NCBI RefSeq assembly: GCF_021130785.1
Contig: NC_060213.1
Coordinates: 114,344,501-114,408,500 of the forward strand
Direction of reading: 5' to 3'
Length of the DNA: 64,000 bases
Origin: Homalodisca vitripennis
Lineage: Eukaryota; Arthropoda; Insecta; Hemiptera; Cicadellidae
Positions 11,156 through 46,130 of this stretch are shown piece by piece; the stretch's first letter is position 1; each line of letters begins with the position of its first letter. The translations under genes and the position numbers were made by a program. A model generated the notes under the pieces. The model saw only the letters and a program-made list of their open reading frames with translations. It ran no database searches and was not told the origin of the DNA.

Positions 11156-11193
11156 TTTGTACTATTAAATACAATAAGTTAATACATTTTTAC

Positions 11194-12474
11194 CTTGCGA
11201 GTTGAGACGTCTTTTTTCACCATCATTTCATAAAGCTCTTGAGAGTTTTCAATACGATTCAGCTGTTTCACAACCTTAGCATTTCCATACATTTCATCAC
11301 GGCCACGAAGTTTCCCAGTTTGTTTGTTGAACAACTTTTTTGCATCTTTGCTGAGACCTTCTCTATGACTGTTAATGACATCGTGTTGCACTTCTTTGAT
11401 AATAGTGCTAGCAGTTTTACAGTTTATTGCTGAATTGGTGAAGAATAGAACTGATGCGCTGAATTGGAACACATCTAAAGGTGTTAACTCATTTCTTTCA
11501 CTTTTATCAATCAGAATCGCAAGACCATGCACAATGCCAATTCCATTAACTGTCAGACTTCCTGTTTGAACTATGAGGAATGCAATGCGGCCAGCTTTGC
11601 CCATAACTTCACCAGCTCTTGCAGCGTTTGTCATAGAAGCGATCATTCGGCCTTGCGCAAATCCCAAACTTGATCCAACAATAGATAACCAACATCCTCT
11701 AGCTTCAGCATCACTCAGACCAATACTTTGGCTATGAGTTGCACGATCGTACAGAACATATGAACTTCTGGTTACTCCATAAGCACCTGTGGACACTCCA
11801 GCGGCTACAGATGCGGCCATGATTGGCCCAGCGATAGGAACTGTACAGAGTGCTGCTACTCCTACAATGGTGGCAGAAACTGTGGCTACAGTCGAAACTG
11901 TGTCAAGAAAACTTAATACTCTACTTGTCACGTCACAAGCAGGAGACGTACCAAAGGAAACACACACTTCATTAGAGTTATTGTTCTCATACAGCCCATT
12001 AGTAGGGTAGCAGTAAATGCACTTTTGAAGAGTATTATTTTGTAAGTAATCATCCCAACTGGAGTATTTGCGAGCACCTGTATCAACAAAGACACATTTG
12101 GATGAAGATTCATCTTCTCCTTTAGCTTTAAACAATGGAACAGTGTAACGATCGTTGAATACTTTCATAACCATGAAGATGCAAGCAAAGTGAATATTAC
12201 GGTTAGAGAAGTCCAAAGTCTCAACCAATTGATCACATACTTTTTCTAATACATCGAATTGCTCTTTACTATATCCTGTCTCCCGATTTTCTGGAGTTGG
12301 TATTGAAGGAGGGGGTCCGAATATACCAAAACCAACTTTTCTCCTTAATATTGACTGACTGTTTACCTCAATTACATCCCATTCTCTGTCACCTAGGAGA
12401 TCGCAGTATTCTTGCTGCGTAGTCTGTGCCTCCTTCTTGAATTCTCTAACATCTTCAGCATCCCAGTTGACCAT
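11194..12474 (-). CDS. Host gene, 5' coding exon (N-terminal 427 residues; DUF4781-like)
   Basis: A 427-codon open exon runs from an ATG at 12474 in a good context to the last base before an AAG|GTAAAA donor at 11194. It splices in phase 0 to 7513-8502. An acceptor-like pyrimidine tract plus CAG sits 12 bp upstream (exon could start at 12486), and an in-frame stop lies further up, so this Met is the likely start. The N-terminal ~180 residues are polar with clustered Cys (about 80-180). Residues about 186-235 form a hydrophobic Gly/Ala-rich segment (G-V-A-A-L ... A-G-P-I-M-A-A-S), followed by D-R-A-T-H-S-Q-S-I and a W-L-S-I-V-G-S motif. A second hydrophobic patch spans about 280-345. The pattern reminds me of the insect DUF4781 family, whose function is unknown. 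A membrane-associated or pore-like role for the hydrophobic part is only a possibility. Confidence 0.8.
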
Positions 12475-19497: not shown

Positions 19498-19947
19498 ATG
19501 AGCGAAAATTGTTCAGTTTGTAATGACATTGTGCCGGATGAGGGAGGTGAATATGCAATGTGTTCTGTTAATAACTGTAGATTACATTTTGAGTGTGCCG
19601 GAATTGCAGAACAAACTTGGACCAGGATGGGACAGAAAAGAAGATGTGAATGGAAATGTAGAAGTTGTAGTAAGCCTTCATCAGGTAATATTCAGGATTT
19701 AATACAAAAACTGCATGGAGATTGTTTATTGAAAATTGAAAGCACAGTAAAAGAACAGTTAATTGCTCACACAGAATTAGTTAAAGACGAAATTGTGGAA
19801 ATTAAAGCTTCACTTCAATTTTTTTCTGACAAAGTAGATGAATACGATAAAAAAGTTGTGGGGTATCTTTCTAAATTAAAAGAGATGGAAAAATTAAACA
19901 GTAGTCTAGTTAGGGAAAATACCTCACTAAAAAAACGAGCTACGTAA
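19498..19947 (+). CDS. Element B ORF1: PHD-type zinc finger plus coiled coil (N-terminal part)
   Basis: This is a 149-codon open frame. A PHD-like finger occupies residues about 5-58: C-x2-C, then C-x4-C, H-x2-C and C-x2-C with the expected Trp. A coiled coil follows from residue 65 to the end. PHD fingers in insect non-LTR ORF1 proteins are presumed to bind chromatin or the RNP. The frame stops by a shift at about 19940. The continuation (I-D-G-I-P-E ... A-S-H-R-M-P) reads in another frame to about 20160, and an FP-like domain follows at 20190-20417. The element is non-functional, but this ORF is intact over the finger. Confidence 0.7.
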   Translation: MSENCSVCNDIVPDEGGEYAMCSVNNCRLHFECAGIAEQTWTRMGQKRRCEWKCRSCSKPSSGNIQDLIQKLHGDCLLKIESTVKEQLIAHTELVKDEIVEIKASLQFFSDKVDEYDKKVVGYLSKLKEMEKLNSSLVRENTSLKKRAT

Positions 19948-20189
19948 CCTTAAAGAGCGATTTGAGGAATTTGATCAATATAATCACAACCATAACACCC
20001 AGATTGATGGTATTCCTGAAGTTGAGGGTGAGAAGATGTAACCTGAAATTGTAACCAAACTTACAGAGATCATTCAGGTGCAATTGGATTATTCTAGGGA
20101 TATACAGGCCAGCCACAGAATGCCTACAAATAGTAAGGATAAAAGTAAAGGAAAGTAAAGATAAAAAGAATAATTTATTATCAACTAGA

Positions 20190-20417
20190 TTTGTTTCCAA
20201 TGTGCCAGAAACGAAAGTGTACATTAATGAGCATCTAACTGTGTTTAACAAGAATCTGTTGTTTAATGCCAAAAAGCTAAGAGACATTGGTTATCAATAT
20301 GTATGGATAAAGGAGGAAAAAGTATTAGTTAGAAGAGGAAATAAGGAGAAAGTTATACAAATCCGTTTTGACAAAGATATTGAGAAAATAATGAAAAGTG
20401 GTAGCTGTGTAGACTGA
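20190..20417 (+). pseudogene. Element B ORF1, C-terminal FP-like domain
   Basis: The 71-codon frame contains V-Y-I-N-E-H-L-T near its start, then K-L-R-D-I-G-Y-Q-Y-V-W-I-K and V-L-V-R-R-G. This is the pattern of the small C-terminal domain shared by insect retrotransposon ORF1 proteins and the baculovirus FP (few polyhedra) protein family. It is separated from the PHD/coiled-coil part by a shift and stops at about 20040-20160. Confidence 0.6.
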
Positions 20418-20489
20418 TAATTTTTGGCAAAACACACAAACAGATATTTGGTATTAGTTTTATTTTACTTATGTGTGTTGTAAATTATC

Positions 20490-22012
20490 CAAACAAGTTT
20501 AAAATATTTCACATTAATATTAGAAGTATTCAAAAACACTTAAATTATTGATTTACCTAGAAGTGAATAACAAGAAATACGACTTGATTATTTTAAGTAA
20601 AAATGGATAAAGTCAGATGAGAAGCAGTCCTACCAGATCCCAGGTTACAACATGACCATGCAGGCAGGGGAGAGTAATCAATCTGGAGGTGTGCTTATCT
20701 ATTTGGATAGTCATCTGGACTTTGAGCATGGATTGTTATCTATGCCCATGGCCGAAATGATTCATGTGGAACTGTCTGTTGTAATACAAAATAATAAAGT
20801 ACAAACTATCATAAATTCAGTTTTTCTCAGTTTAGAGAAGAGTTTGAAAATGTTTTAAAATTAAATAATGACCCTATCATTATTATAGGGGATATACATG
20901 TTTGTACATTCAAATATAATGGCTCTGGTCAAAATTATATAAATTTATACACATCATATGGCTTTGAAAAATTATATTAAAGAACCAACTCGAATAGTTG
21001 GAATAAGTAAATCATGCATTGATCATATTTTGATTAGAAATACTAGTGCATTAGATTTCGAAATTTATCTTTTAAAAACGTACATAGGTAACTGATCACT
21101 TTGCTTTAGAATTAAATGTCTTCAACTTGAATTTAGAATTAAGGAATAAAGTAAAGTTCTCTAAAGTTGTAGATTATGATATGCTTAGTAGGAAGTTATT
21201 GTCTGCTAATTGGTTACCCGTTCTTCAGGCATGTGATGTAAATAGCTGTGTTAAAATATTATGTGATACATATAGTAATTGTTATAATGACTCTTGTAGA
21301 CTGAGAAAGATTAATAGTAGAAATAGAAGACACAATCCTTGGATAAATGATCACTTAGTGAATCTAATAAATATGAAAAACCGTTTTTATAAATTATACA
21401 TTAGGGATATAGAAAATATTTATTTGAAATCTAGGTACAGGGAACTTTCTCATACTGTGCACAGGCAAATCAAAAAAGCCAAACTTGACTATTACTCTAC
21501 TCTTTTTGATTATAATAGCAGTAACATAAAATAGTACTGGAAAATAATTAAGAGAATTAAAAAAAAGGAAAAAATAGGTATCAGTAGAATTAATTGTAAT
21601 GGTACTCTGATTGATGTTAGTAGGAATAAGCTGAAGGTAGCAGATGTGTTTAATGATTTTTGTAAATGTTACCTCTCAGCTGAGACAGGAGCATTTTGGT
21701 AGTGATATGTTTCTTATTGACAGTGCTGATAACTGTGTTGTGTTTGAGCATTTCTCAATTAGTCACGAAAACATTGCAAGAGCTATAAATAAAATGACAA
21801 ATAAAAAAAGCTGTGGGCTGGATGGAATAAACATTATTACTATTAAGCGTAACATTAATGTGCTTTTACCGCTTCTTCTGAATATTTTTGAAAAATTTCT
21901 AAGACACGGTGTATGCCCTGATAAATTTAAGACTGCTTGTGTAGTGCCAATATATAAAGCAGGTAGCCATACAGAAGTTTCATCGTATAGACCTGTATCG
22001 TTAATTAATACA
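20490..22012 (+). pseudogene. Element B ORF2: endonuclease, linker and start of RT
   Basis: The endonuclease begins at I-F-H-I-N-I-R-S-I-Q (about 20505-20535). It continues with S-G-G-V-L-I-Y (about 20680) and I-I-G-D-I-H-V (about 20880), broken by several stops. A 135-codon linker frame (21127-21534) resembles the region between EN and RT. The next frame (21644-22033) reaches K-K-S-C-G-L-D-G-I and S-Y-R-P-V-S-L-I-N, the first RT motifs, before ending at the junction with element C. Confidence 0.7.
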
Positions 22013-22022
22013 CGTTATGTAC

Positions 22023-22779
22023 AAGATGGCTGACTGACTACAGTCAAAGTGAAGTGGCTCCCAGTTAAAAGTGTTCATAAGTGTGTATTTTACAAACAAC
22101 AACAAATATTTACTCACCTGTGCAGCAATTTACCTGGAAATACTGTAAGTCCATTTCACAATAAAACTTGAAGAAAACTAACCAACTCAAGAAATCATGA
22201 TCATGACAAGAAATAAGCTGTAACTCAAGGAACATACCTGCAATGTAATCTCAAGCATTTTAAAGAACTTAAGTCTAATGAAATCGTAATAAGGCTTATT
22301 CACACTACAAAGTATTTTCAATGAAGTTTACATTTATGAAACCAGGAAACTTTACTAGATTTACTGAATAAATTCAAACCATATGGAGACAACTGGAAAC
22401 AGTGCTGATAGTGCTGACAGCGTCACATTCCACACCTGACCTACTGACAGCTGTGTACACAGCCGTCAGCAATCAACAGCCTTGCTTCTAACCATGGCTC
22501 TCTTAAACAATCTGACGACGTGTTCCCTACTTACTAATTTGAAATTGTTATATAGTTTCATTGATATATAAATCATTATTCTGACAATCTCCCTATACAA
22601 GAGCAGTAATATTATCCTTGACAATCTGTGGAATTTTTTTAGCCTTAAACTTAGAGAATCAGCCAAACTCTCAAGAAAAAACTGAATTTTTATCATTTTA
22701 ACCTAGAGAAGCAGTCAAACGCTCAAGAGTCTACATAAATTGGAAATAGACTACAAAATAAATACATCCTAACTCAAAA
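22023..22779 (+). promoter_or_regulatory. 5' leader of element C
   Basis: About 750 bp is shared with 39467-40280 of element F at high identity, including the GCTGATAGTGCTGACAG block and the final stretch before the ORF1 ATG. Conservation between copies and position at the 5' end suggest a leader with an internal promoter. I see no classic core promoter motif and make no claim about its sequence elements. Confidence 0.6.
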
Positions 22780-24221
22780 ATGCCCCCAAGATATCCCTGT
22801 GGCTCCTGCTCAATTGGGGTCAAATTTTCAGGAGTAAAATGCACTGGCCCGTGTGGTATGTGGTATCACGCTGGCTGCCAGAATATTCCTGAGAAAACCC
22901 TGAAAAAATGGACCGACAGTGAAATAACAATATGGAAAGTACACGTAAAGGAGAGCTCAATGCCACTGATTCAACTACTCCTGGCTCCTCAAAGCCTCTA
23001 GATCGTCTGTGCACATCAATAGACGAACTGGAAAGCAGTCTGAATGAAAATAATAATCTATATAACTTAGAAGATAATGATGAGAAACTAGAAATGGCTG
23101 CAAAAATAGGAGTAGCACTCCTTGAGGAAAATAATCTTTTGAAAGAAAAAAATATTAGATTAGAAGCTAAACTAGAAATTTTGGAAGAACAGGTTGGGAG
23201 AATGGAAAACGAAGAGAATAAATATCTGAATAAAATTGAAGACCTATTACAGAATATCTCTGAAATACAGGCTCAACTGGAAAGAGAAAAAAAACTTTGC
23301 ATAGACACACAAAACGTCTTTGAAAAGCACGACTACAAAAAAGGACAACTTGTTGATAATCATACTAAAACAATAAATCACCTAGAGAATATAATAAAAA
23401 ATCTTGAGAAAAAATTAAGCTCACAAGAAACACTTCAATCAGAATTTCTGAATCGTACAAACAATGAATCCCAAACTGAACCGTTCACTCATTACATCTC
23501 TCAGCCCATAAGCTACTCCTCAAACTCGCTGATGGAACTTGCTCAATTAAAAGTAAGGCAAGATAATTTAGAACGTACGGTTGAGGACTTGGCAGGACAA
23601 ATCAAAAATAGACATACTGAGCCTCCGTCTAACTCAGAAATACAAAGCATGTGTAAAACACAAAATCATAAAATAATTAAAAAAAGCATGCCAACCAAAC
23701 AAAATAATACACCATCTAATAGAGGAAAGAAGAACTATTTCAGTGTTTCACTACAAATGGCTAAACTTACACAATCCCAGAAACAATATCCTATGGTTAC
23801 ACAAAGACAGATACTTTTGACAACTAATGAACTGCTTAAGACTGTGGGAGACTGCCAAACCCGTACAGAAAAACAGAAAATCTCCTGTACGACTCAAGGT
23901 CTAGGCCAGATTCTGGAAAACCAATCTCACAAGACTCAAGAAATGACAGCAACTTACGCACAATATAACAGCAACAGGAACACAGTCGGTACCAACAAAA
24001 CTGAAAACCTGCTACCTGATATGACTGTGGGAATCAGCCAATCCTCCACAAAAATACTGTCCACCGAAATCCATGACTCATCAGAACATAATGACCAAAT
24101 CACACAAGATATTACAGAGGGAATCTGCCAATGCAAACACCAAACACATTCATTCAACAAACACAAAAGGAGACATCATGGAAACAGATACAGGCAAACT
24201 CGAAGACATTCCATTAAGTGA
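22780..24221 (+). pseudogene. Element C ORF1: PHD-like finger and long coiled coil
   Basis: ATG 22780 starts a cysteine-rich finger: Y-P-C-x2-C, C-x3-C-x3-W-Y-H-A-x-C. The last Cys pair expected after the W-K is lost to a small indel near 22935, where the frame changes. In element F the corresponding C-S-N-C is present. The main 429-codon frame (22932-24221) is a long coiled coil (about residues 50-175), then a conserved L-K-V-R-Q-D-N-L-E helix (about 205) and a Gln/Asn/Thr-rich tail. The role is presumed to be ORF1-type RNP assembly. A further frame change near 24070-24170 separates it from the next segment. Confidence 0.75.
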
Positions 24222-25038
24222 TGACGAAGACTCAGAACTTACAGAGACAAGAGCGACCGCCCGCAAGAATGTTGGGAGCACCTCATTAAACACAAACACA
24301 GGCCGCATTTCCAACCTACTCGAAGAGGATCTTAAAAATCTTGAAAGATTAAAACCATACTCTTTCCCACCAGAAGAGACACCTATATTGACTACACAGT
24401 ACATGACCAAATCGTGTAGCATTTTCCTCTTCAATGTTGATGATACCTGCTCAACTTCAAGATCACCATCAACTCAAAACGTCACTGCAATTCAAAAGAG
24501 ACTAAAGAATAAAAACATCTCATTCAACAACTTCACTACAACTCAGGACAACAAGGGAAACACAAAAATAATCATCTGTTTTTCCGCCAAACTCAACAAC
24601 TGGAAGAAAAAACTGTTTCCTTTTCTAGAGCTGGCCAATGAATGCATCAAATTTCTAGTGCTCTTCTCCATCAATTCAGAGGAAAACATGAAGGAAGTGA
24701 ACCTGAGCCCCTCAAGCATTAGAGAGATCCTTCAGGTATTTCTGCAGTTCTCCAGCAATGCCTACCTACATCACTTCTGCCTGTATACACAAGAAAAGGA
24801 GACGAAGAAAACAATTGACCGGATTCTTGATGATACAGTGTACAAAAGTCAAATAAAAATATCAAGAGTAGCAACAAGAGACTCGGCTATATACAGCACT
24901 TGGAGAACAACTCGAGGGTCCCTCGAGCCCAAACACCTACCACCCTACTCGCCCAACTACAACAGGCTCAACTACATACAAGGGGCAATGCACGAACAAA
25001 AAGAGCTTTGGAAATCAAAGGAAACATTATATCCTTAA
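24073..25038 (+). pseudogene. Element C unrecognised protein segment upstream of the helicase
   Basis: This is a 321-codon open frame. Residues about 45-60 are an acidic Asp/Glu patch. The body (about 110-270) mixes hydrophobic strands and helices, and the C-terminus is Pro/Tyr/Asn-rich. I do not recognise a family; it could be the tail of ORF1 or the N-terminal part of the helicase polyprotein. Coding continues across a frameshift near 25020 into the frame that holds the helicase, so the two probably formed one protein. Confidence 0.55.
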
Positions 25039-25039
25039 A

Positions 25040-26165
25040 GAGCATAGTAAAATATACAAGGAGTACAATGTAAGCCACCTGACAGAAGCCTCCCAAATAG
25101 ATCTTTTCCACCAAAAGACTAAGAAAAAGTATGACATCATAAATATACGCACAGGAAAAGTGCTTACAACAGAAAAAACACAAACACAATACCAATTCGG
25201 GTATGACGGTGCACACCTAGTGGAACTGCAAAGAAACGAAAACCAAAATTACAAATTATCCCCCAACAATTTTGCTATTAATGATAACATCCTAGTTTCA
25301 GATAACACACAGCTCCTAAATGACCTGAGGCTATATAACAGCATAAAACACCTCAATATTACTCTTACTCCGGATATTCCGCTTAACCTAGTACAAGGAG
25401 TACCAGGATGTGGCAAAACCACCTACATACAGAAGAACTTTAAACCTGGAGATCTAATCCTATTCCCTACTAGAGACTCAGCAATTGACTTCAAAAACAG
25501 GTTCAAGGACACACACCCTAACTACTGTAAAACTAACATTAATGACACCTTCCGAACCCTACACTCATTTCTGATCAACTCCTCACAGCATATCGAGAAA
25601 GGAAACCAGTATGATAGGCTCATCATAGACGAAGCACTTATGATGCACGCTGGGAAGATTCTATTTGCAGCAACCCTCTCTGGAGCAAAAGAAGTCCTAT
25701 TCATAGGTGATACCAATCAAATCCCCTACATAAATAGAACATCCGAGCTGGAGGTAAAATACTACAAAATCTCTGAAATAGCCACAACGGTCAAAGTGCT
25801 AAGCACATCCTACAGATGCACTAAATCTACGACAGCTGTCCTCTCAAAATTCTACCCACAAGGAATGGAAACAACAAACGACATAGTAGGTGAACTGGAT
25901 ATACAAAACTTTGAGGGCCTAGAAAATCTAAACCTGCACCCAAAGGAGTACACTGTTCTGGCTTTTAAACAGGCAGAAAAGAACGAACTTATCAAAAGAG
26001 GATACAAAGCATCCACCATCCATGAGTTTCAGGGCAAACAAGCTGCAAATATAGCTGTAATACACACTTCCAGTAGCCCAGGGGAAATATAAAACTCACT
26101 CCCCACTGCCTAGTAGCACTATCTAGACACACCAAATCCTTTCTTTACATGACACCATGTAGGAA
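25040..26165 (+). pseudogene. Superfamily 1 (viral-type) helicase domain in element C
   Basis: The frame 25040-26091 carries SF1 helicase motifs in order, with residues counted from Met at 25160. Motif I/Walker A is G-V-P-G-C-G-K-T-T (80-88). Motif Ia is F-P-T-R-D-S-A (102-108). Motif II is I-I-D-E-A (155-159). Motif III is F-I-G-D-T-N-Q-I-P (181-189). Motif IV is S-T-S-Y-R-C (215-220). Motif V is S-T-I-H-E-F-Q-G-K (285-293). A one-frame shift at about 26090 precedes motif VI (A-L-S-R-H-T-K, about 26127-26147), which reads in the frame that continues into the endonuclease. The D-E-A box, G-D-x-x-Q and compact ~250-residue core fit the helicase-1 family of alphavirus-like positive-strand RNA viruses, not cellular Upf1 or Pif1. 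The expected activity is NTP-driven RNA unwinding. This copy is broken. Confidence 0.85.
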
Positions 26166-27440
26166 TGACACAATAAGCAAATGGATCCAGCAGACAAACG
26201 CTCTTGACAATAAGGAACTCTTAGCATTCACAGCAAATAATCTCACTACTGACCAGCTGAATAGAAAAAGCATAACAATCAACACAGGCCAAAGTACTAA
26301 CAGGCAAGAAACAAACCCACATCAGCAGCAACCAACCACAGACCATGATTTTTTAGACAAAATCCAGCACAGCAAGGAAAGAGACAAGACCAAAGTGAAA
26401 CACAAACCACAAACACTCTGGAACTCCAGCTTCAAAAAAAATAAAACACCTCCTAAACAACACAAGGTCACGCGGCCACACCAAAACATTGTAATGGCCC
26501 ACCAAAATATAGATGGAATCAAAAATAAAATAGAACGACTGACACACTTCCTTCACTCCCACAACCCCGACATTCTCATACTGACAGAACATGGACTAAA
26601 CAGTGCAAACCTAGAAAACATCAGGATACCAGAGTATGAACTCATTGGAGGGTTCACAAGGACACAACATAAGAAAGGTGGTGTGGCAATATTCAACAAC
26701 AAGAACTTAAAAAGCAAGGTCAGCATAGTATCCATCTCACTGATTCAACTGAAATGATCTGTGAATCCATAACACTGAAGATAAATCTCAAAAACTGCTT
26801 TCTATACCTAGTGGGAGTCTACAGACCTCCACATTCTAACCTTGAGAACGCTATTGATACACTCTCAACAGAACTAGACAAAATCCCGAATCCAAATAAC
26901 CCGATAGTCATAATGGGTGACATAAATGTTGATAACCTGAATGATATTCAAGAAAGCCAAAGCCTAATGGAAGCTCTAGAGGGATTCAATATTAAGAGAT
27001 TAAAACTAACTCCTACTAGAATCACCCACCACAGCCAGACCTCTATTGATGCCATCTGCACAAACATAAGTGAGGATCAAGTATCCCATAGTGTGATCAC
27101 CACAGGGCTTTCAGACCACACTGCTCAACTGTGTCGTGTAACCGTAAACATTGACAATCATACTCCAATAAAGTCTAAACAAAGGGTTATAAATATGCAC
27201 AAAATGGAGGAAATACGAACAATCTTAGCAACCCAAAACTGGGCAGATGTAATATCTAAAGAAAATACAGAGGCTGCCTTCACTGCTCTGGATAGTGTCT
27301 TGCGGTTTACTCTGGACGCGGTATGCCCACATAAAACAGTACAAATAAAGAAAACACGAGTAAAAAGAGTATGGGATGCCGAATGTGAAGAACTTAAAAG
27401 ATCATATAGAGGCATTAAACCGAGAAATCCTCACTGGTAA
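26166..27440 (+). pseudogene. Element C AP-type endonuclease and EN-RT linker
   Basis: The domain starts at M-A-H-Q-N-I-D-G-I (about 26494-26520) after a Gln/Lys-rich linker. It has L-T-E-H-G-L (catalytic Glu, about 26580-26600), G-G-V-A-I-F, then, after a frameshift near 26745, G-V-Y-R-P-P (about 26815-26832), M-G-D-I-N-V-D (about 26915-26935), T-S-I-D-A-I (about 27040) and G-L-S-D-H-T (about 27107-27124). These are the standard EN motifs of Jockey/CR1-type ORF2. The residues for metal binding and catalysis are all encoded; only frame breaks disrupt it. The linker continues to about 27400, where the frame shifts into the RT. Confidence 0.8.
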
Positions 27441-29135
27441 TATAGAAGACAAAAATAACACAGCTCTCAGAAAGAAAAACTATGACCTCAAACTGAAAGA
27501 TCTGAGGAAAAAGCACAATGTAGACCTTATAGAGCAAGCAGAGAACAAATCAAAAGCCTTATGGAAAGTAATAAATTCAGACAGGAAGAAAAAGAGTGAG
27601 ACTTCAATTTTAGAAAACCTGAATATAGAAGGAGGCATGCACAGCTCACCTGAGAGAATAGCAAACTACTTAAACAGGTTTTTTGTGACAATTGCAGATA
27701 GAACACTGAAACAGAACGAAAAGGAAGAACATGGCACAATAGAAGACCCTGTTGAAAATATATTGGCTCAAAACCTCCAGCTTTACAAGGCAACTGAAGA
27801 AGAGATAAGAAAAACTATAGATTCAATGAAACCCAAAACTTTGGCTGGAGAAGACGAGATCTCATCTAAATTAATTAAATACTGTAAGAATGAACTAGCA
27901 GACCCTCTAACAAACCTAATAAATAAATCTCTTGACGAAGGAGTCTTTCCTAGCACTTTAAAAACGTCTAAAATATATCCAAAATACAAAAGTGGAAAAA
28001 CCACTGAAGCAACCAGCTACCGCCCAATCTCCCTAATACCAAACTTCTCAAAAATTCTTGAAAGAGTAGTTCTCAACAGACTCACAGAGCATCTTCATCA
28101 GCATAACCATTTTACCTCTAAACAGCACGGCTTCATCAAGAACAGGTCAACAACAACAGCCATTACGCAACTCATAGAAGGCCTCATAGAGAAGCTAGAA
28201 CAAGGCTACATTGCCTCAACAATCTTGCTGGACTTCAGCAAAGCATTTGATTGCCTGGACCACAAACTGATAATAAAGAAACTAAGGATTCTCAGTATTT
28301 CTGGAAAAGAAGCACAATGGTTTCAAAGCTATATAAGTGACAGGAAACAGTTGGTAGATATCACCTATGAAGACAATAACGTCTTACAAAAGATGAAATC
28401 ACAAGTACTACCAATAACTAGAGGAGTGCCACAAGGATCAGTGCTTGGTCCTGTCCTGTACATTCTTCTAGCAAACGATTTTCCAAAATACCTAGAAAAC
28501 TTTTGCGAGGCGGTCATGTTTGCGCATGACACAGCGATGATTGTTGCTGACAAAAATAAAGAACAATTAGAAATAAATTCCTATGTGGCTTATAACATGG
28601 CAAAGCAATACTGCTACCAAAATGACCTTGTCTTAAATGAAAGCAAAACCTGCCAACTCATCTTCACAACAACCCCAAACAACTATCAGGGGCTTCCAGA
28701 CATCACAACTGTCAGTATAAATAAATACTTAGGCATAATTTTAGACAATACCCTAACATGGACACCTCACATAAACCAGTTATGCAATAAATTGAACTCC
28801 AGTCTCTTTGTTATTAGAAGAATGAAACAGATCAGCGACCATAAAACAGCACTAACTGCCTACTACTCACTCTTTGAGTCCCAGCTTCGATACGGACTGG
28901 TAGCCTGGGGAGGTACAAGTGACACAAATCTGCAAAGAGTACTGATCATACAAAAAAGATCAATAAGAACTCTGAATGGACTGGGCCCCAGAGACTCTTG
29001 CAGAGAGGCTTATAAGGAGCTCAAAGTACTGACAGTGGCCTCACTCTACATCCTTGAAACTGTGCTCTTTACAGTAAAATCGGGCCAAACTAGAATGGAA
29101 GAACAGCATTCTTATAACACAAGGTACAGACACAA

Positions 29136-29139
<4 letters not shown>
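27376..29139 (+). pseudogene. Element C reverse transcriptase (catalytic box mutated, 3' truncated)
   Basis: A long open frame of nearly 590 codons before the (TA)n tract contains S-Y-R-P-I-S-L-I-P (about 28016-28042), Q-H-G-F, L-D-F-S-K-A-F-D-C-L (about 28230-28259) and G-V-P-Q-G-S-V-L-G-P (about 28426-28455). The C-terminal motifs are S-K-T-C, Y-L-G-I-I-L-D, T-W-T-P-H, R-Y-G-L-V-A-W-G and R-D-S-C-R. The catalytic Y-A-D-D is replaced by F-A-H-D at 28519-28530, so the first catalytic Asp is His and activity is expected to be lost. The protein runs into a (TA)n-encoded Tyr-Ile repeat instead of its normal C-terminus. Confidence 0.85.

Positions 29140-29185
<46 letters not shown>
29140..29185. 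repeat. (TA)n tract at the 3' junction of elements C and B
   Basis: A 46-bp AT alternation separates the truncated RT of element C from the resumed RT of element B. The microsatellite replaces the expected 3' end, so it probably marks a rearrangement point. Confidence 0.9.
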
Positions 29186-29188
<3 letters not shown>

Positions 29189-30135
29189 GAGATATTGCAA
29201 ATTCCCCTGTACTCAACAATATTTGCATATGCTGACGACACAACAATAGTTTGTTCTGCAAATAATAAAAATACATTAAGACAAATGGTTAACCAAGACT
29301 TAAAATCTATTTCAATTTGGCTAATTCAAAATAAAATAATAATAAATAGTAATAAGTCAAAATGTATATTATTTTTTGACCAAAATAAAGAATGTAGAGA
29401 ACTACAAAATGAAAATAACTTTTTCTGTCATCAACATTTATGCCTTTATAAATGTTTATGTGAGGGTATTGAGGTAGTTGATAATGTCAAGTACTTAGGG
29501 CTTATAAAATGGATTCTTTAAAATGGGACTTCTACACAAAATATCTAGTAGGAAAGCTTAGAAAAATAAATTATGCTTTATACCATATGAGAGAATATCT
29601 AAAATCTGACCATTTAAAGAAACTATATTTGTCTTAGTTTGAGGGAACCATAAGGTATGGTATTATACACTATGGTGGGACTTATGACTCAGTTTTGAGG
29701 CAGGTGATAATGTTACAGCGATTTGCAGTGAGGAATGTGTACCATATAAGAAAATTTGATAGTGTGTCACATTTCTTTCAGCAGGAGAAAATTTTGACTT
29801 TTTCTCAACTAGATGTATTGAGTGCAATAATGTATATAAAAAAACATTTAATAAATTATGAATTACAAAAATTTAATCGTGACACTAGATTATCTGCTAG
29901 AATGGTCATAGAGACTCCAAATTATCTTAAAGAAATCGGATGTAGACAGTTTTGCTACTCAGGGATAAGATGGTTTAACCGTTTCGTACTTGAGTGTGGT
30001 GACAACATATTGTATGAGAGGAAACCTAAATGTAAAATGAAGGCCTTGGAATTTATAGTTAGCTTGGGTTTGATGTGATGACACCAATAGAGAGAGATCA
30101 ATTTATTGCAAGAATTGCTGTTCATACATTAATTG
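29186..30135 (+). mobile_element. Element B (3' part): RT from YADD onward
   Basis: RT coding resumes with I-N-E-I-L immediately before A-Y-A-D-D-T (YADD at 29228-29239). It proceeds through S-K-C-I-L-F, V-K-Y-L-G and, in 29695-30078, the C-terminal region with W-F-N-R-F. At least two frame breaks (about 29520 and 29640) lie within it. No clear polyadenylation tail is visible; the 128-bp satellite starts about 30 bp later. Confidence 0.7.
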
Positions 30136-31084: not shown

Positions 31085-32649
31085 GATGCTTATTTTTTAG
31101 GAATAGAAGGCCAAAAAAAGACCAGATACAAGAAAGCGTACAAACCCAGAGTATTCCTAAACTCAAGAATGAAATATCAAACACAGTAAATCAGCAATTT
31201 AGCATTCTACACCAAAATGTGAGAGGCCTCTCAAGAAAAGTAGAAAGACTAAACCACTTCATCGAGTCTGCAAATCCATCAATACTGATTGTAACTGAAC
31301 ATGGCCTTGATCCAGACAAACTGAAACTTATAAACCTAAAGGGCTATAGTCTAATAACTGAGTTTAGTAGACATGTCCATAAGCTGGGAGGAGTTGCCAT
31401 TTATGTTGAGGATACGCAAGACTTGGAAGTGGAACAAATTGACGTAAAGGACTACTGTCAAGAACTTGTATTTGAAGCCGCACTGGCTAAAGTAAGTTCA
31501 AAAAAGCAATCATTCCACATTCTTGGCATTTACCGTCCACCATCGAGTAAAACTAAGGAAGCAATAGAGGCCATATCAAACATACTTAACCTTGTAAGAA
31601 GTGATGTAAAACCACTAATCTTAATGGGTGACATCAACATAGATAGATTAGACTCTACAAATCCTGGAAACAGCCTACTTGAAGAGGAACTGTCAACCTT
31701 TGGAATTAGAAGACTACCACTACCAGCCACCAGAATAACAAGCTTAACCAAAACATCAATTGATTGCATTTGTACAAATCTACCGGAGGACAAATTGTGC
31801 TTCGACATTATTCAGGGTGGAATGTCGGATTATACTGGGCAGCTGTGCAGAATCCTAACTACAACAACAAATTACAATAAACAAGGCAGCTCATATAATA
31901 GAAGTTTTAACAAACAAAACCTTGACTACTTAAAAAATGAACTTGCAAAAGAAACCTGGGATGAAGTGCATAATGCTCATGATGTTGAGCTGGCATATAA
32001 TGCTTTTCACAAGATTGTGATCAATGCCCTAAACCTGGCCTGCCCAAACAAAATAGCTAGGACAAAACCAAAGGGGAAGCAGAAAACCCGGTATGATGAT
32101 GAGGTGAATAAGTTAAGAGAAGATTTTCTTAAATCATTGCACATGTATGAACTCACAGGAACCACAAGAGATAAAGAAATAATGGCTGAAAAAAAGAAAA
32201 CCTATGACCTCAAACTTCGAGATCTGAGACGTGATGCAGCCTATGAACACCTAATCAAATCAAATAACAAACCTAAAGCACTGTGGAGCATCATAAATGC
32301 AGAGAAGCAGAGAAGCCACTCCTCCAATGCTGCACTTCACTTGGAAATAGATGGGAAAACAGAAGAAAACCCGATGCTGATCGCTGAGCATCTTAACAAC
32401 TACTTTTCGACAGTGGCAGATTTAACTTTGGAGGAAAGCAGGAATCAGTTTCACAATGTGGAAACAACCTTTGAAGGCATTATACATTCACAATGCAACC
32501 ACACACTAAGCCTGACACTAACTGAGGAGAACGAGGTGTTAGAAACTATTGGATCACTGAAGCCAAAGCTCTCCTGTGGCATTAATGAAGTTCCATCAAA
32601 GATGGTAAAGCACTGTGCAAATCAGTTAGCCCCACCTTGGTTAGCATAA
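31085..32649 (+). pseudogene. Element D ORF2: endonuclease and linker
   Basis: The frame is open from about 31070 with the endonuclease starting S-I-L-H-Q-N-V-R-G-L (about 31200-31230). It has V-T-E-H-G-L (about 31290), G-G-V-A-I-Y, G-I-Y-R-P-P (about 31527-31545), M-G-D-I-N-I-D (about 31624-31645), T-S-I-D-C-I and M-S-D-Y-T-G. All EN catalytic residues appear intact over this 520-codon frame. The linker with Y-D-L-K-L-R-D-L-R-R follows. The frame ends at 32649 by a shift. The next ~180 bp read in another frame before this frame resumes at about 32820. Confidence 0.8.
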
Positions 32650-39464: not shown

Positions 39465-40280
39465 AAGATGGCTGACTGACTACAGTCAAAGTGAAGTGGC
39501 TCCCAGTTAAAAGTGTACATAAGTGGTATTTCAACAACAAATATTTACTCACCTGTGCAGCAATTTACCTGGAAATACTCCATTTCACAATAAGTCCATT
39601 TCACAATAAAACTTAAACATAACTAATCAACTCATGATCATGACAAGAAATAAGCTGTAACTCAAGGAACATACCTGCAATCTAATCTTAAGCATTTTAA
39701 AGAACTTAAGTCTAATGAAATTGTAATAACGAGGCTTATTCACACTACAAAGTATTTTCAATGAAGTTTATATTTATGTAACCAAGAAACTTTACTAGAA
39801 TTACTGAATAAATTCAAACCATATGGTAACAACTGGAAACAGTGCTGATAGTGCTGACAGTGTCACATTCCACACCTGACCTACTGACAGCGGTGTACAC
39901 AGCCGTCAGCAATCAACAGCCTTGCTTCTAACATTGGCTCTCTTAAACAATCTGACGACTTGTTCCCTACTTACTAATTTGACATTGTTATATAGTTTCA
40001 TTAATATATAAATCATTATTCTGACACTCTCCCTATACAAGAGCACTAATATTATCCTTGAAAATCTGTGGAATGTTTTAGACTTAAACTTAGAGAATCA
40101 GCCAAACTCTTAAGAAAAAACTGAAATTTTATCATTTTAACTTAGAGAGGCAGTCAAACTCTCAAGAGTCTACATAAATTGGAAATAGACTACCTCTCAC
40201 AAACTCTGTTTTACATTACACCAACCTGAATAAATATTTACCACTTTATTAACCCAGTCTGAACTTGACTGAGATTTGAA

Positions 40281-40474
40281 ATGCCAACATAGTATCCTTG
40301 TGGCTCTTGTACCGTAGGAGTTAAATTATCAGGATTAAAATGTTCTGGACCCTGCAATATGTGGTACCACGCTGGGTGTCAGAATATACTTGAGAAAACC
40401 CTTAAAAAATGGTCTACTACAGAAATTAATGTGTGGAAATGCAGTAACTGTAAAAAATTAGATCAAGACACCTA
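40281..40474 (+). pseudogene. Element F PHD-like zinc finger
   Basis: The frame from ATG 40281 has a TAG at codon 4 and then a complete finger: C-G-S-C, C-S-G-P-C, W-Y-H-A-G-C and W-K-C-S-N-C, ending in a stop at 40472-40474. It is clearly homologous to 22780-22940 of element C and shows which Cys pair was lost there. Confidence 0.75.
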
Positions 40475-40619
40475 AAATTTTGACACTAAGGCCAATGAAG
40501 CAGGCACTCATCAATCTTACTTCCTAGCAGATAAGCAACTATCAAGCACTTCCCACATCCTTGATCATAAAACTGACCACACATCAAACAAACCAGTCAT
40601 TAATAATGAATTCACTTCC

Positions 40620-42110
40620 TTGACACAAGTAACAATTTATGAAGTTCAAGAAAAAATTAAAAACTTGGAAGATGATGACCTTGAAACTTCACTTACCTTA
40701 GCTGCTGAGGTAGGAAATGCCTTGCTGGCCGAAAATGGAAAACTAAAACAAGACCTAAATAATTTAAAACTCAAAAATGTTCAACTATCACAACAGATCA
40801 CAGACCTAAAAAAATACAGTGAAATTGAATATGAAATGAAAATTAAAGATTTGGAAAATGAAAAAGACGCACTAATTAATAGAAATTTGGCCTTAAATGA
40901 AACTCTAAATCAAATTGAACATCAGCTCACCAAAGAGAAACAATTTAAAATAGAATTAGTTAAAACTTTTGAGGAGCAGGACTGGGAGAAGGAACAAATT
41001 ATTTTAAATTATGAAAAAGAAATTAAAAAACTTCCAGATGAACTCAAAAAACAGAAAACTAATTATATTGATCAAGTTTATCCAAAACAAGCCTTAACAA
41101 CTGTAAAACACTCAGGAACACAGACCGATACCTCAGAGTCCAACACTCTATCACCCATGACTACACCCCTCCTTCTTGAGCTGACAAAAATGAAGGTCCG
41201 CCAAGACCACATAGAACACCTTAGGAGACTTGCCCTGCCACCAAAGAGAGTCACAGCCACCTCTAACTCCTCTATTGATATTATCTGCACTAACCTCCCT
41301 CTAGGTAAACTAAATGTAGAAGTCTGTAACACTGGTCTCTCAGATCATACCGGTCAATATTGCACAGCTGATCTTCCTAAAATACTTGACAACTCAACAT
41401 CTTCAACATATAGGGATACAAGCTCAAGGAATCTAAACAACCTAAAACACCTCTTAGCCACAGAAACTTGGGAAAATGCGATGCAATCAAATGACACTGA
41501 TGACGCTTATGACAATTTCCTTATCACCTTTACTAGGGCCTTAGATGTTGCCTGTCCATTCAAAACCAAGACACAACATCACTCTAAAAGGAATACATAC
41601 CACAACGAAGAAGTCTTGAGCTTACAGAAAGAGTTTATTAAAGCACAGAACAAGTTCAATCTCACAGGAAGAATAGAAGATAAGACTGAAGCAAACTGGA
41701 AGAAGAAAACTTATGATCTAAAACTCAGAGAGCTTAGGAAGGAGGCCAATGCAGGCTATATAAATCAAGCTAACAATAAATCCAAAGCGATCTGGGAAAT
41801 TATAAATAGAGAAAGAGCTGCTAAAAACCAAACAACACCAGGCCTGACTCATTTAAAAATTGATAAAGTACAAGAAACAGACCCAAATAAAATCGCTAAC
41901 TACCTTAACACCTTCTTTGTTAATATTGCTGACAACACCCTAAAACAACATCAAATATCAAATGACAACATAGTATATAATCCACTGTACAACATAGAAA
42001 TCATAATGACAGAGATGATCCCTGCCACAGTAAAGAAGATTAAACAAACAATCCACATACTAGCAAGTAAAACCTCCTCTGGGTTGGACAAACGTCTTCA
42101 AAAATCATAA
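40620..42110 (+). CDS. Element F ORF1-EN fusion frame
   Basis: This is a 496-codon open frame created by an internal deletion. Residues 1-195 are ORF1 coiled coil (L-E-T-S-L-T-L-A-A-E-V-G block near 22-33; M-K-V-R-Q-D-H-I-E helix near 191-199). Residues from about 202 are the end of the endonuclease (S-S-I-D-I-I, G-L-S-D-H-T-G) and the EN-RT linker (Y-D-L-K-L-R-E-L-R). The junction lies at about 41215-41225. No zinc finger, helicase or EN active site is included, so the product would be a chimera without enzymatic function. Confidence 0.75.
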   Translation: MTQVTIYEVQEKIKNLEDDDLETSLTLAAEVGNALLAENGKLKQDLNNLKLKNVQLSQQITDLKKYSEIEYEMKIKDLENEKDALINRNLALNETLNQIEHQLTKEKQFKIELVKTFEEQDWEKEQIILNYEKEIKKLPDELKKQKTNYIDQVYPKQALTTVKHSGTQTDTSESNTLSPMTTPLLLELTKMKVRQDHIEHLRRLALPPKRVTATSNSSIDIICTNLPLGKLNVEVCNTGLSDHTGQYCTADLPKILDNSTSSTYRDTSSRNLNNLKHLLATETWENAMQSNDTDDAYDNFLITFTRALDVACPFKTKTQHHSKRNTYHNEEVLSLQKEFIKAQNKFNLTGRIEDKTEANWKKKTYDLKLRELRKEANAGYINQANNKSKAIWEIINRERAAKNQTTPGLTHLKIDKVQETDPNKIANYLNTFFVNIADNTLKQHQISNDNIVYNPLYNIEIIMTEMIPATVKKIKQTIHILASKTSSGLDKRLQKS

Positions 42111-43470
42111 AATTTTGTGAGGCTGAACTCTTAAGACCAATACACCACATCAATAACCTATCCTTTATGCAAGGCAGATTCCCGAAAACCTAAAACTGGC
42201 CAAAATATATCCTAAATATAAACAAGGAAATAAAGACGAAGCCACAAACTACCGTCTCATCTCACTACTACCGACTGTATCTAAAGTAATAGAAAAAATA
42301 ACTCTATCTAGACTCCTCACTCACCTGCAAGCCAATAATCTCCTGTCAAATAAACAGCATGGTTTCAGAAAAGGAAGATCTACATTAACTACAATAATGG
42401 ACCTTGTTGAATTTATTACAGACAACCTAGAAGAAGGCAACACCATCACCAGTATCTTTCTAGACCTGAGTAAAGCCTTCAACTGTCTTGGCCATAACCT
42501 AATCCTAGCCAAACTACAATCTCTTGGCATTCAACAGTCAGCTCTGAAATGGTTTGAGAGTTACTTGAGTGAAAGATACCAATTTGTGGAGGTCAAACAG
42601 AGAAGAAATGGAGACACCTGCACTGTCAGGTCTGGAAGGCTACCAGTGACTCGAGGTGTTCCCCAAGGCTCCGTCCTAGGGCCAATCCTATATATTTTAT
42701 TCACAAATGACGCCAACTTTCTTGGAAAACTACACAAAATCTATTATGTATGCAGACGATACTGTTCTGCTATCTGCCCAAAAGGATGTTGAACAGCTGG
42801 AAATAAACTCCTACATATAATTTAATATGGCCCAACAATATTGTAGATACAATGATCTAGTATTAAACAGCTCCAAGGCTAAGCAAATCACTATAGGAAC
42901 TAATAAAAACTATGTGTCCGAACTCCCTGACCTCCAAGAAGCAGAAGACATGAATTATTTAAGAATAACAATAAATAATAACTTAACTTGGACAAATCAC
43001 ATTGACAATTTATGCCTTAAGCTAAATTCATCTCTATATGCCTTACGACGAACCCATGCAACTAGCAACCTTGAATCCACTAAAATAGCGTACTATGCGC
43101 TATTTGAAAGTCATCTTAGGTATGGAATAGCAGCATGGGGAAGCACAACAAAATTCAACCTTTCAAAAGTCCTCAAAATCCAAAAGAAATCAATACGTTT
43201 AAAGGGCAACCTAGGACCTAGACAAAGTTGTAGAACTACATTTAAAGAATTGAAAATACTTACGGTTACATCCCTTTACATAATAGAAACAATATTGTAT
43301 TGCCAACAAGAGACCTTCCTCGAAATGGTGATCTCCATGAGCATAATAAAAGACATGGTCAAGACTTTCCACTACCTCTTCACAGAACAGCCTTATTTCA
43401 GAAAAAACATACCTACGCTGGGAAGAAACTCTTTAATGCTCTGCCAGAATAAATCAAGATAATATCAAGA
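42110..43470 (+). pseudogene. Element F reverse transcriptase
   Basis: Frames 42110-42400, 42397-42792 and 42827-43462 carry N-Y-R-L-I-S-L, Q-H-G-F-R-K-G, L-D-L-S-K-A-F-N-C-L (Asp to Asn in the usual F-D-C), G-V-P-Q-G-S-V-L-G-P and, after a shift near 42710, an intact Y-A-D-D-T (about 42750). Then R-Y-G-I-A-A-W-G and R-Q-S-C-R follow. Stops and shifts inactivate it. Confidence 0.8.
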
Positions 43471-44983: not shown

Positions 44984-45307
44984 TCAGAGACTGCTGTGGC
45001 AATGAGAGATACCACCGCGGCTGATGTTTGTGATAACGTTGTCAATCGCAGTGGCAGAAATTGCCGTAACGCGGATTGCCGAGTTAACGGACCAATGAAG
45101 ATCGAAAGTTTTCAGCAAGTCCCGAAATGATCTGGTTTTCGAATTGTAGACATTCAAAACGTCTATGTTAAAGTTGCCCATCATTATGAATGATCTGCTA
45201 TTGGAGCACAAATTTTGTAATAAAAGACCCAATAATTCAATAAATATTTCAAAATCTCCATCGGGGGATCTATATAAACCGATTAAATGAATTTTAGTTC
45301 TCAACAT
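44984..45307 (-). pseudogene. Element E partial endonuclease
   Basis: The frame contains G-L-Y-R-S-P-D-G, M-M-G-N-F-N-I-D-V (Asp to Asn in the G-D-F box) and I-D-N-V-I-T-N. The N-terminal half with the catalytic Glu is missing because the frame begins right at the end of ORF1 (overlap with 45294). The enzyme would be inactive. Confidence 0.7.
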
Positions 45308-46130
45308 TGCTGTCCTCCGTAGTCACAGTCTGGCAGAGGGCCGTTGAGTCGTGTCTGCTGTCCCCGCTGTCACTGTTACCGTCCTCTGTTCTAGTAGTGA
45401 GGACTCTCGATTGCTGCAGCTGATGCAGTTGACTAGAGATCGATGCTCGGCCCGGGGTTGAGCTGATCGCGTCTGCATAGCTGTCAAACGGCAAGGTGAC
45501 GGGACTCGACTCTGGTGTCACTATAGACAAAGGAGAACCTCCATAATTACCTGGACTCGAATAGGTCGGTTGCGAGTCCATCGTATCGTCGTCTTCACTT
45601 TCCTTAGGTAATCTGTGATGATATACAGCCTTCGAGATTCTCTCACAAAGACTTGCTTTACCCACACTGTTGAGGTGTTGCCCGTGCCCCGTAAACATGC
45701 GCCTACCAAGTTTGCTGACATCTACAATGATGGTACCGTCCTTATACAACTGATTTATTTCTTTATTTATAAGTTTTATTTCTCTGTTTACGTACAAACT
45801 GTAAGGTAGATCATGGCGGTGAAATAAGTTTAATACGACATGGGACTTATTGGGTGCAGATTTCAGTTCATGATTGAGTTGGTCCACCACCGTATGGGAC
45901 TGCCTCTTGCCAAGTTGTTTGTATCGTTGATTCCAGCAGTGATAATAACAGCATCACCTTTGGTAAAGTTTTCTGTCATTGCCTCACAATTCGCAAGAAC
46001 GTACTCGAGATGCGCTCCTGAATTAGCGCAGCCAAATACTTGATCGTTTGTCACCTTATTTTGCAGAATAGATTACAATTCCTTGGCATGGCTATCTCCA
46101 AAAATGTGAATCCTTCTTTGTTTTAGAAGG
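45294..46130 (-). pseudogene. Element E ORF1, SGNH-type esterase domain
   Basis: Block I is F-G-D-S-H-A-K-E-L (about 46110-46085), followed by a stop. The Gly block is C-A-N-S-G-A-H-L (about 46030), the Asn block is I-T-A-G-I-N-D-T-N (about 45945) and the His block is G-H-G-Q-H-L-N-S-V-G-K (about 45690-45660). All catalytic residues are present, although frames change near 45870. A long Ser/Thr/Pro-rich tail ends at 45294. This is the same domain type as in element A, but from a different lineage. Confidence 0.75.

Follow-up and report, generated by a model that had tools for sequence, protein, structure and literature searches.

Virus-type helicases are already known from insect long interspersed nuclear elements (LINEs; PMC4686597, PMC5563155 and PMC6338049). 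Jockey-like LINEs of Hemiptera and Orthoptera, with Homalodisca vitripennis among their hosts, are described as carrying a superfamily 1 (SF1) helicase in open reading frame (ORF) 1, just upstream of the ORF for endonuclease (EN) and reverse transcriptase (RT) (Morozov et al. 2017, PMC5563155), and the possible roles of LINE helicases are discussed by Morozov et al. 2019 (PMC6338049). In lepidopteran R1/TRAS elements, a tobamovirus-like SF1 helicase lies at the C-terminal end of ORF2 (Lazareva et al. 2015, PMC4686597). A PHD-type ORF1 and a modular, reticulate evolution of ORF1, as in the elements considered below, are described for CR1/L2 LINEs (Metcalfe and Casane 2014, PMC4120745), in a paper whose main text does not contain the word 'helicase'. 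Here we analyse a 64,000-nucleotide stretch of the H. vitripennis genome (NC_060213.1, positions 114,344,501 to 114,408,500; hereafter the window), in which element A (22023–29190, plus strand) is a broken LINE copy. Its helicase is of the same virus type, and in the same place, as that of the LINEs of Morozov et al. 2017. What appears to be new is an octamer, TTTTTTAG, that precedes EN in all 19 families compared. From the arrangement of frames around it, we consider it likely that the ORF1 of this LINE acquired a cassette of RNA-virus type, made of a domain X and the helicase, and that a –1 slip of the ribosome at U_UUU_UUA would yield an ORF1-helicase-EN-RT protein.

Element A and its virus-type helicase

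Element A consists of seven frame pieces in the same direction, none with a stop inside, which encode in order a PHD-like finger, a coiled coil, domain X, the SF1 helicase, motif VI with a tail that runs into the AP endonuclease, the rest of EN, and RT. Its parts, and the octamer of a neighbouring element, are as follows.

22023–22779, plus strand: 5' end and untranslated region (UTR); first 732 bp match 39465–40193 of element C at 92% identity
22780–22929, plus strand: PHD-like zinc finger, start of ORF1 (PF00628, E 0.01, below cut-off)
22923–24218, plus strand: coiled-coil part of ORF1, frame 3 (open frame; best match HAP1_N, below cut-off)
24025–25035, plus strand: domain X of ORF1, frame 1 (no known family; matches helicase-bearing relatives)
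24872–26089, plus strand: SF1 helicase motifs I–V, frame 2 (PF01443; PDB chain 3vkw)
26077–26348, plus strand: helicase motif VI and ORF1 tail, frame 1 (PF01443 positions 211–228; the helicase's own frame in siblings)
26349–26356, plus strand: TTTTTTAG, proposed –1 frameshift site (62 of 66 junctions, 19 of 19 families)
26492–26496, plus strand: TAATG (in siblings L002–L005 the ORF1 stop overlapping the ORF2 ATG)
26494–27362, plus strand: AP endonuclease, start of ORF2, in two frame pieces (PF03372, PF14529)
27364–29136, plus strand: reverse transcriptase, 3'-truncated (PF00078, E 1.2e-27)
29137–29190, plus strand: (TA)n run linking the truncated 3' end of A to the outer LINE
31093–31100, plus strand: TTTTTTAG in neighbouring element B, 99 nt upstream of the EN of B

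The PF00628 match spans 22762–22998, EN is above cut-off for PF14529 and just under it for PF03372, and RT, found together with the AP endonuclease, is of the RVT_1 type (PF00078). At its 3' end, A breaks off in the last part of ORF2, where the (TA)n run links it to the RT of the older LINE; the RT of a sibling copy (L031) extends about 60 aa past this point. An Rfam scan of 22000–29500 gave no matches.

The helicase is split over two frames. Frame 2, open over 24872–26089, matches Viral_helicase1 (PF01443) at model positions 2–202 of 228 (E 1.6e-29 to 2.8e-29), and the frame at 26077–26754, which reaches the AP endonuclease without a stop, holds positions 211–228 with motif VI (E 0.012, below the gathering score). 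This is the arrangement that an earlier note on this DNA had read from the letters alone, with motifs I–V in one frame and motif VI one shift on; the PHD-like finger and coiled-coil ORF1 that it had placed upstream were likewise located, both with Pfam scores below cut-off. The profile match rules out a chance resemblance of motifs. In the PDB, the top match is a 3vkw chain annotated 'Replicase large subunit' (E about 2.4e-26), followed by 3wrx (2e-26), 6jim ('helicase'; 1e-8 to 2e-8), 7y38 (nsP2; 1e-7 to 2e-7) and RecD (0.02). We take 3vkw to be a tobamovirus replicase; it is the best solved likeness, although it is part of a viral replicase and the LINE helicase is clearly diverged from it. 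Neither Upf1 nor Pif1 was among the ten sequences in the PDB search up to E 10, so that a cellular helicase of that type, the affinity that would have spoken against a viral one, is ruled out in favour of viral SF1. In NCBIfam and PHROGs, the matches were generic ones to helicases, exonucleases or RTs, apart from one short terminase match, no relatives were found in viral_contigs and genome_contigs, and a single-sequence AlphaFold model of 24872–26089 reached a predicted local distance difference test score (pLDDT) of 34.7. The published account of viral-type helicases in insect retrotransposon proteins that the earlier note mentioned does exist (PMC4686597, PMC5563155).

Further copies were sought in the host assembly (2.30 Gb, 14,901 contigs), the only insect genome used, where 128 of 606 first-look helicase candidates were scored. 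At least 132 helicase matches are present, at least 35 of which (window copy included) have 290 aa or more and are free of stops; these numbers rule out a one-off insertion. Flanking element modules (X and/or EN-RT pieces) were found at all 30 fetched loci, and EN follows the helicase in 29 of them, the exception (L016) having an RT and no EN match. The helicase is thus a standing module that precedes EN in ORF1, in contrast to R1/TRAS, in which it follows RT. Copies that join precisely at 25.0 and 26.2 kb, which would have indicated a single insertion, were not seen, and ORF1 is shorter in those helicase-free relatives that were examined. The ratio of nonsynonymous to synonymous substitution rates (dN/dS) of the helicase was computed for 18 pairs, of which 4 were saturated and 2 had no synonymous change. 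It is 0.06–0.15 in the six pairs with at least ten synonymous changes and finite dS (for example, L009–L012, 0.06; L018–L021, 0.13; L031–L018, 0.15). Taken together, the comparisons support the view that an SF1 helicase of virus type is an established component of a retrotransposon lineage and is under purifying selection.

The siblings of A have a different layout from that of the window copy (L001). In L031, a longer stretch of the L003 copy, a single 1224-codon ORF1 frame runs from the coiled coil through X to a complete helicase (PF01443 positions 2–228 of 228, E 2.4e-39; 96% identical to the helicase of the window copy), and EN-RT occupies a 1009-codon frame offset by –1 from ORF1; L031 is 5'-truncated, and the PHD finger is seen in the window copy. 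In all four A-family siblings with a clean junction (L002–L005), the helicase and linker form one ORF ending in TAATG, with EN-RT separate and in the –1 frame, and in clean copies of further families, too, the helicase ORF precedes the EN-RT ORF and is distinct from it. Heptamer and EN are 148 nt apart in the window copy and 147 nt apart in L002–L005. On this comparison, the continuous helicase-to-EN frame of the window copy is a product of indels; fused frames with the register lost also occur in L015 and in L013 and its longer stretch L032. The frame from motif VI into EN that the earlier note described is therefore real in this copy, but the siblings rule it out as the native layout. The polyprotein that the note had derived from it is not supported as a direct frame; a fused product nevertheless remains likely, with a –1 frameshift as its route.

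A conserved octamer ahead of the endonuclease

Junctions were taken from L001–L073, except L031, L032 and six loci without an EN match (L016, L047, L068, L069, L071 and L072). With element B of the window added, these make 66 junctions, which fall into 19 families by single-linkage clustering (65% over 80 nt; some helicase families are lumped). A family was scored for a k-mer if at least half of its members hold it. An 8-mer count that did not presuppose the heptamer found TTTTTTAG upstream of EN in 62 of the 66 junctions and in all 19 families, with or without helicase. The next two 8-mers (11 of 19 families) overlap TTTTTTAG, and the best non-overlapping one is CACCAAAA (9 of 19); by chance, TTTTTTA would be expected in 0.86 of 19 families. 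Four junctions are without the octamer: relative to members of their families, L022, L050 and L062 have either lost a base or acquired a point change within the site, and in L070 the sequence at this place is a different one. In the helicase-free L062 (C1:64318260–64320260), whose heptamer is altered, the PHD-ORF1 and EN-RT form one frame of 1461 codons.

The frame relation around the octamer is conserved. Of the 62 octamer junctions, 43 have EN in the –1 register and keep this frame open all the way from the heptamer; in 4 more the register is right but the frame is interrupted, and in 15, window copy included, EN is out of register. In the 43 clean junctions, the zero frame stops 12–60 codons past the site and EN lies 57–189 nt away. 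Measured from stop to stop, ORF1 and ORF2 overlap by 58–241 nt in clean helicase-bearing copies and by 25–40 nt in one helicase-free family. The junctions show an X_XXY_YYZ heptamer in the zero frame with the downstream ORF in the –1 frame, which is one mark of eukaryotic –1 frameshift sites. In an alignment of 20 representatives, picked for having the heptamer (window copy included; two of them, winA and L031, belong to one family), none of the flanking columns between –24 and +29 is above 16 of 20. Elsewhere in ORF1, none of 29 FL dipeptides is written NNT TTT TTA (7,494 codons, 19 representatives). In R1/TRAS elements, overlapping –1 frames have reportedly been noted.

A parallel lies outside LINEs. 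U_UUU_UUA is the shift site of HIV (PMC5009743), and HIV gag-pol has the same heptamer and register, with pol-type enzymes in the –1 frame (PMC5009743, PMC7297798); unlike gag-pol, the elements here are LINEs, in which no downstream stem was found and no LTR (long terminal repeat), protease or integrase was seen. Recoding of ORF2 has likewise been proposed for Paramecium LINEs, for which +1 frameshifting, re-initiation or read-through is suggested, but the suggested shift is +1 rather than –1 and the passages name no slippery heptamer (PMC5405496). In Nilaparvata, the helicase ORF and ORF2 overlap by 2 nt (PMC5563155, whose main text lacks the word 'frameshift'), compared with 58–241 nt, a slippery octamer and an apparently mobile cassette here. 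A full-text literature search, with subscription journals outside it, found no report of –1 frameshifting for LINE ORF2 expression among the papers listed; passages of a recoding review mention HeT-A, TART and L1 without such a site (PMC5009743), and passages of PMC4700185, PMC7175516 and PMC5014426 concern LTR elements only.

The most likely sequence of events would run as follows. A LINE ORF1 would have taken up the X-helicase cassette of RNA-virus type. Most ribosomes would make the ORF1-helicase as the main product, coating the element RNA, and the rest would shift back by one nucleotide at U_UUU_UUA to make ORF1-helicase-EN-RT, in a product ratio like that of Gag and Pol. The –1 product would supply EN-RT for target-primed reverse transcription, and the helicase, held in the ribonucleoprotein, would be placed to unwind structure in the element RNA or the RNA–DNA hybrid. 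For the clade as a whole, we lean, by a little, towards the wider proposal that EN-RT is made as a Gag-Pol-like fusion through a structure-independent U_UUU_UUA_G site, with a mobile, virus-derived helicase upstream in several families.

Helicase-free relatives and probable movement of modules

The octamer goes with the clade and not with the helicase, judging from helicase-free copies (L056–L058 and L063) whose ORF1 frames of 467–501 codons also reach TTTTTTA; a PHD finger is present in L057, L058, L063 and L033. Among 73 scored RT relatives (of 425,842 candidates; 53–100% identity, the window copy counted among them), a same-strand helicase match lies no more than 6 kb upstream in 5, as checked against 126 of the 132 helicase places, with six short fragments left out. 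None of 20 stretches upstream of RT relatives that lack such a match yielded the helicase at E 0.01, ten of these stretches holding only about 0.9 kb, and L033 has no helicase match at E 0.001. Domain X had no matches in the eight helicase-free stretches examined. By eye, L033:2–750 looks like a mariner-like transposase fragment beside the helicase-free LINE.

The earlier note had suggested a comparison of phylogenies as a check on whether the helicase and RT co-evolved; the trees conflict. In ORF2 trees of 13 rows chosen for open frames, the A family is sister to the helicase-free L033 (support 100/99). A single ORF2 clade of helicase-bearing rows is rejected in the approximately unbiased test (p-AU 0.0048; element B unlabelled), as is A forced together with L009, L014 and L044 (p-AU 0.00065; a grouping named after the tree had been viewed). 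L044 groups by its helicase with L035, L041 and L043, and by its ORF2 with L009 and L014. Identities follow the modules: A is 69% identical to L033 in the PHD finger, 75% in EN and 66% in RT, with 41% over part of the length of the coiled-coil part, and is 48–56% identical in X, 59–63% in the helicase, 45–53% in EN and 47–53% in RT to the six nearest helicase-bearing relatives (L008, L009, L014, L018, L021 and L032). The conflict of trees and these identities make it probable that X and the helicase were passed on together from one LINE family to another, perhaps by template switching. Repeated loss and uneven rates could explain part of the conflict, but the module identities favour transfer. 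Of the capture from a virus proposed earlier, the viral-type helicase in the lineage stands, but direct capture by this very lineage is doubtful, because the ORF2 of A groups with helicase-free LINEs and its helicase matches those of other LINE families.

Other parts of the window bear on the history of these elements. The 5' regions of A (22023–22754) and C (39465–40193) are 92% identical and begin at the same base, yet the RTs of the two elements are only about 52% identical, which suggests exchange of 5' UTRs between LINE families. Both 5' ends (22023–22035 and 39465–39477) start with AAGATGGCTG, which we take to resemble a YY1-type promoter motif. Element C (39465–43462) is an internal deletion in which the coiled coil is fused in frame to the second half of EN; the position of the helicase and the frameshift site were deleted with it. 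Element B is 5'-truncated. An older PHD-type LINE is split by A into two parts (19498–22022 and 29191–30078) and is without the middle of its RT, so the insertion of A or a later (TA)n-linked deletion would have removed sequence. On the minus strand, a long ORF at 11179–12474 with DUF4781 (E 4.9e-85) is probably a host gene, and an ORF at 45294–45890 resembles, by eye, an SGNH-esterase-type LINE ORF1.

Competing readings of the octamer and the helicase

Several observations weigh against the proposed shift or against selection on the helicase. No excess of RNA structure was found 3' of the site: the mean z is –0.15 at 90 nt, 2 of 19 sites are below –2, the mean over 38 control stretches is –0.16, and the folding of 60–120 nt of downstream sequence is not stronger than that of shuffled or control sequence (simple folds, no pseudoknots). 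A stimulator usually accompanies frameshift sites of the –1 type. TAATG, which is also present in the A family, could be a point of re-initiation, and the AG at the end of the octamer could be a splice acceptor. The dN/dS of the helicase is not low in near-identical copies (2.24, 1.43 and 0.84, with one or two synonymous changes) and is 0.42, 0.39 and 0.21 in pairs with eight or nine synonymous changes. In a high-throughput study, the HIV site was unusually tolerant of downstream changes and depended little on exact structure (PMC7297798), which softens the objection from missing structure but does not remove it.

Translation of ORF2 by termination and re-initiation at UAAUG, with the heptamer incidental, would account for the TAATG that joins the two ORFs in L002–L005, and in SART1 ORF2 translation is reportedly coupled through UAAUG. 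The 2-nt overlap in Nilaparvata (PMC5563155) and the routes suggested for Paramecium (PMC5405496) point the same way. However, the octamer is present in every family, and the ATG shows no such conservation: 20 of the 43 clean junctions have none in the EN frame between its opening stop and EN. We regard this account as unlikely, although re-initiation may act beside frameshifting in some families. Still less probable, in our view, is that TTTTTTAG is a conserved 3' splice acceptor for an ORF2 mRNA without the helicase. The octamer does resemble a pyrimidine tract followed by AG, and the G after U_UUU_UUA (26356 in the window), which creates this AG and for which –1 slippage has no obvious need, is present in 62 of 62 heptamer junctions; but none of the 20 representatives has a T or G directly ahead of the six T, pyrimidines are not enriched upstream, and ORF1 lies in the sole frame that suits –1 slippage, which splicing would not require. 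From the genetic code, selection on FL in ORF1 together with FF(R/S) in ORF2 would also force TTTTTTAG, with no recoding. We give such dual coding next to no weight, since the neighbouring residues vary freely and, where the ORF2 frame has no ATG before EN, FF would be translated only after a shift. The helicase might, for its part, serve mainly as a suppressor of RNA silencing or as an antiviral factor and not in retrotransposition, as the weak silencing suppression by a Plutella TRAS helicase suggests (PMC5563155, PMC6338049). Helicase-free relatives are present in many copies with open EN-RT frames; the clade can therefore dispense with the helicase, as fits an accessory role of either sort, and we hold a main role in silencing or defence to be possible but doubtful.

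If the frameshift reading is correct, a single protein would carry helicase, endonuclease and RT and would be the minor product, at a set ratio. The way in which LINEs keep ORF2 protein at a suitably low level could be probed directly with reporters, given a conserved, simple octamer of slippery type in 19 families of one genome. Close LINE families with and without the helicase offer a natural experiment on the role of a virus-type helicase in retrotransposition, and the helicase findings suggest that enzymatic modules pass between LINE families.

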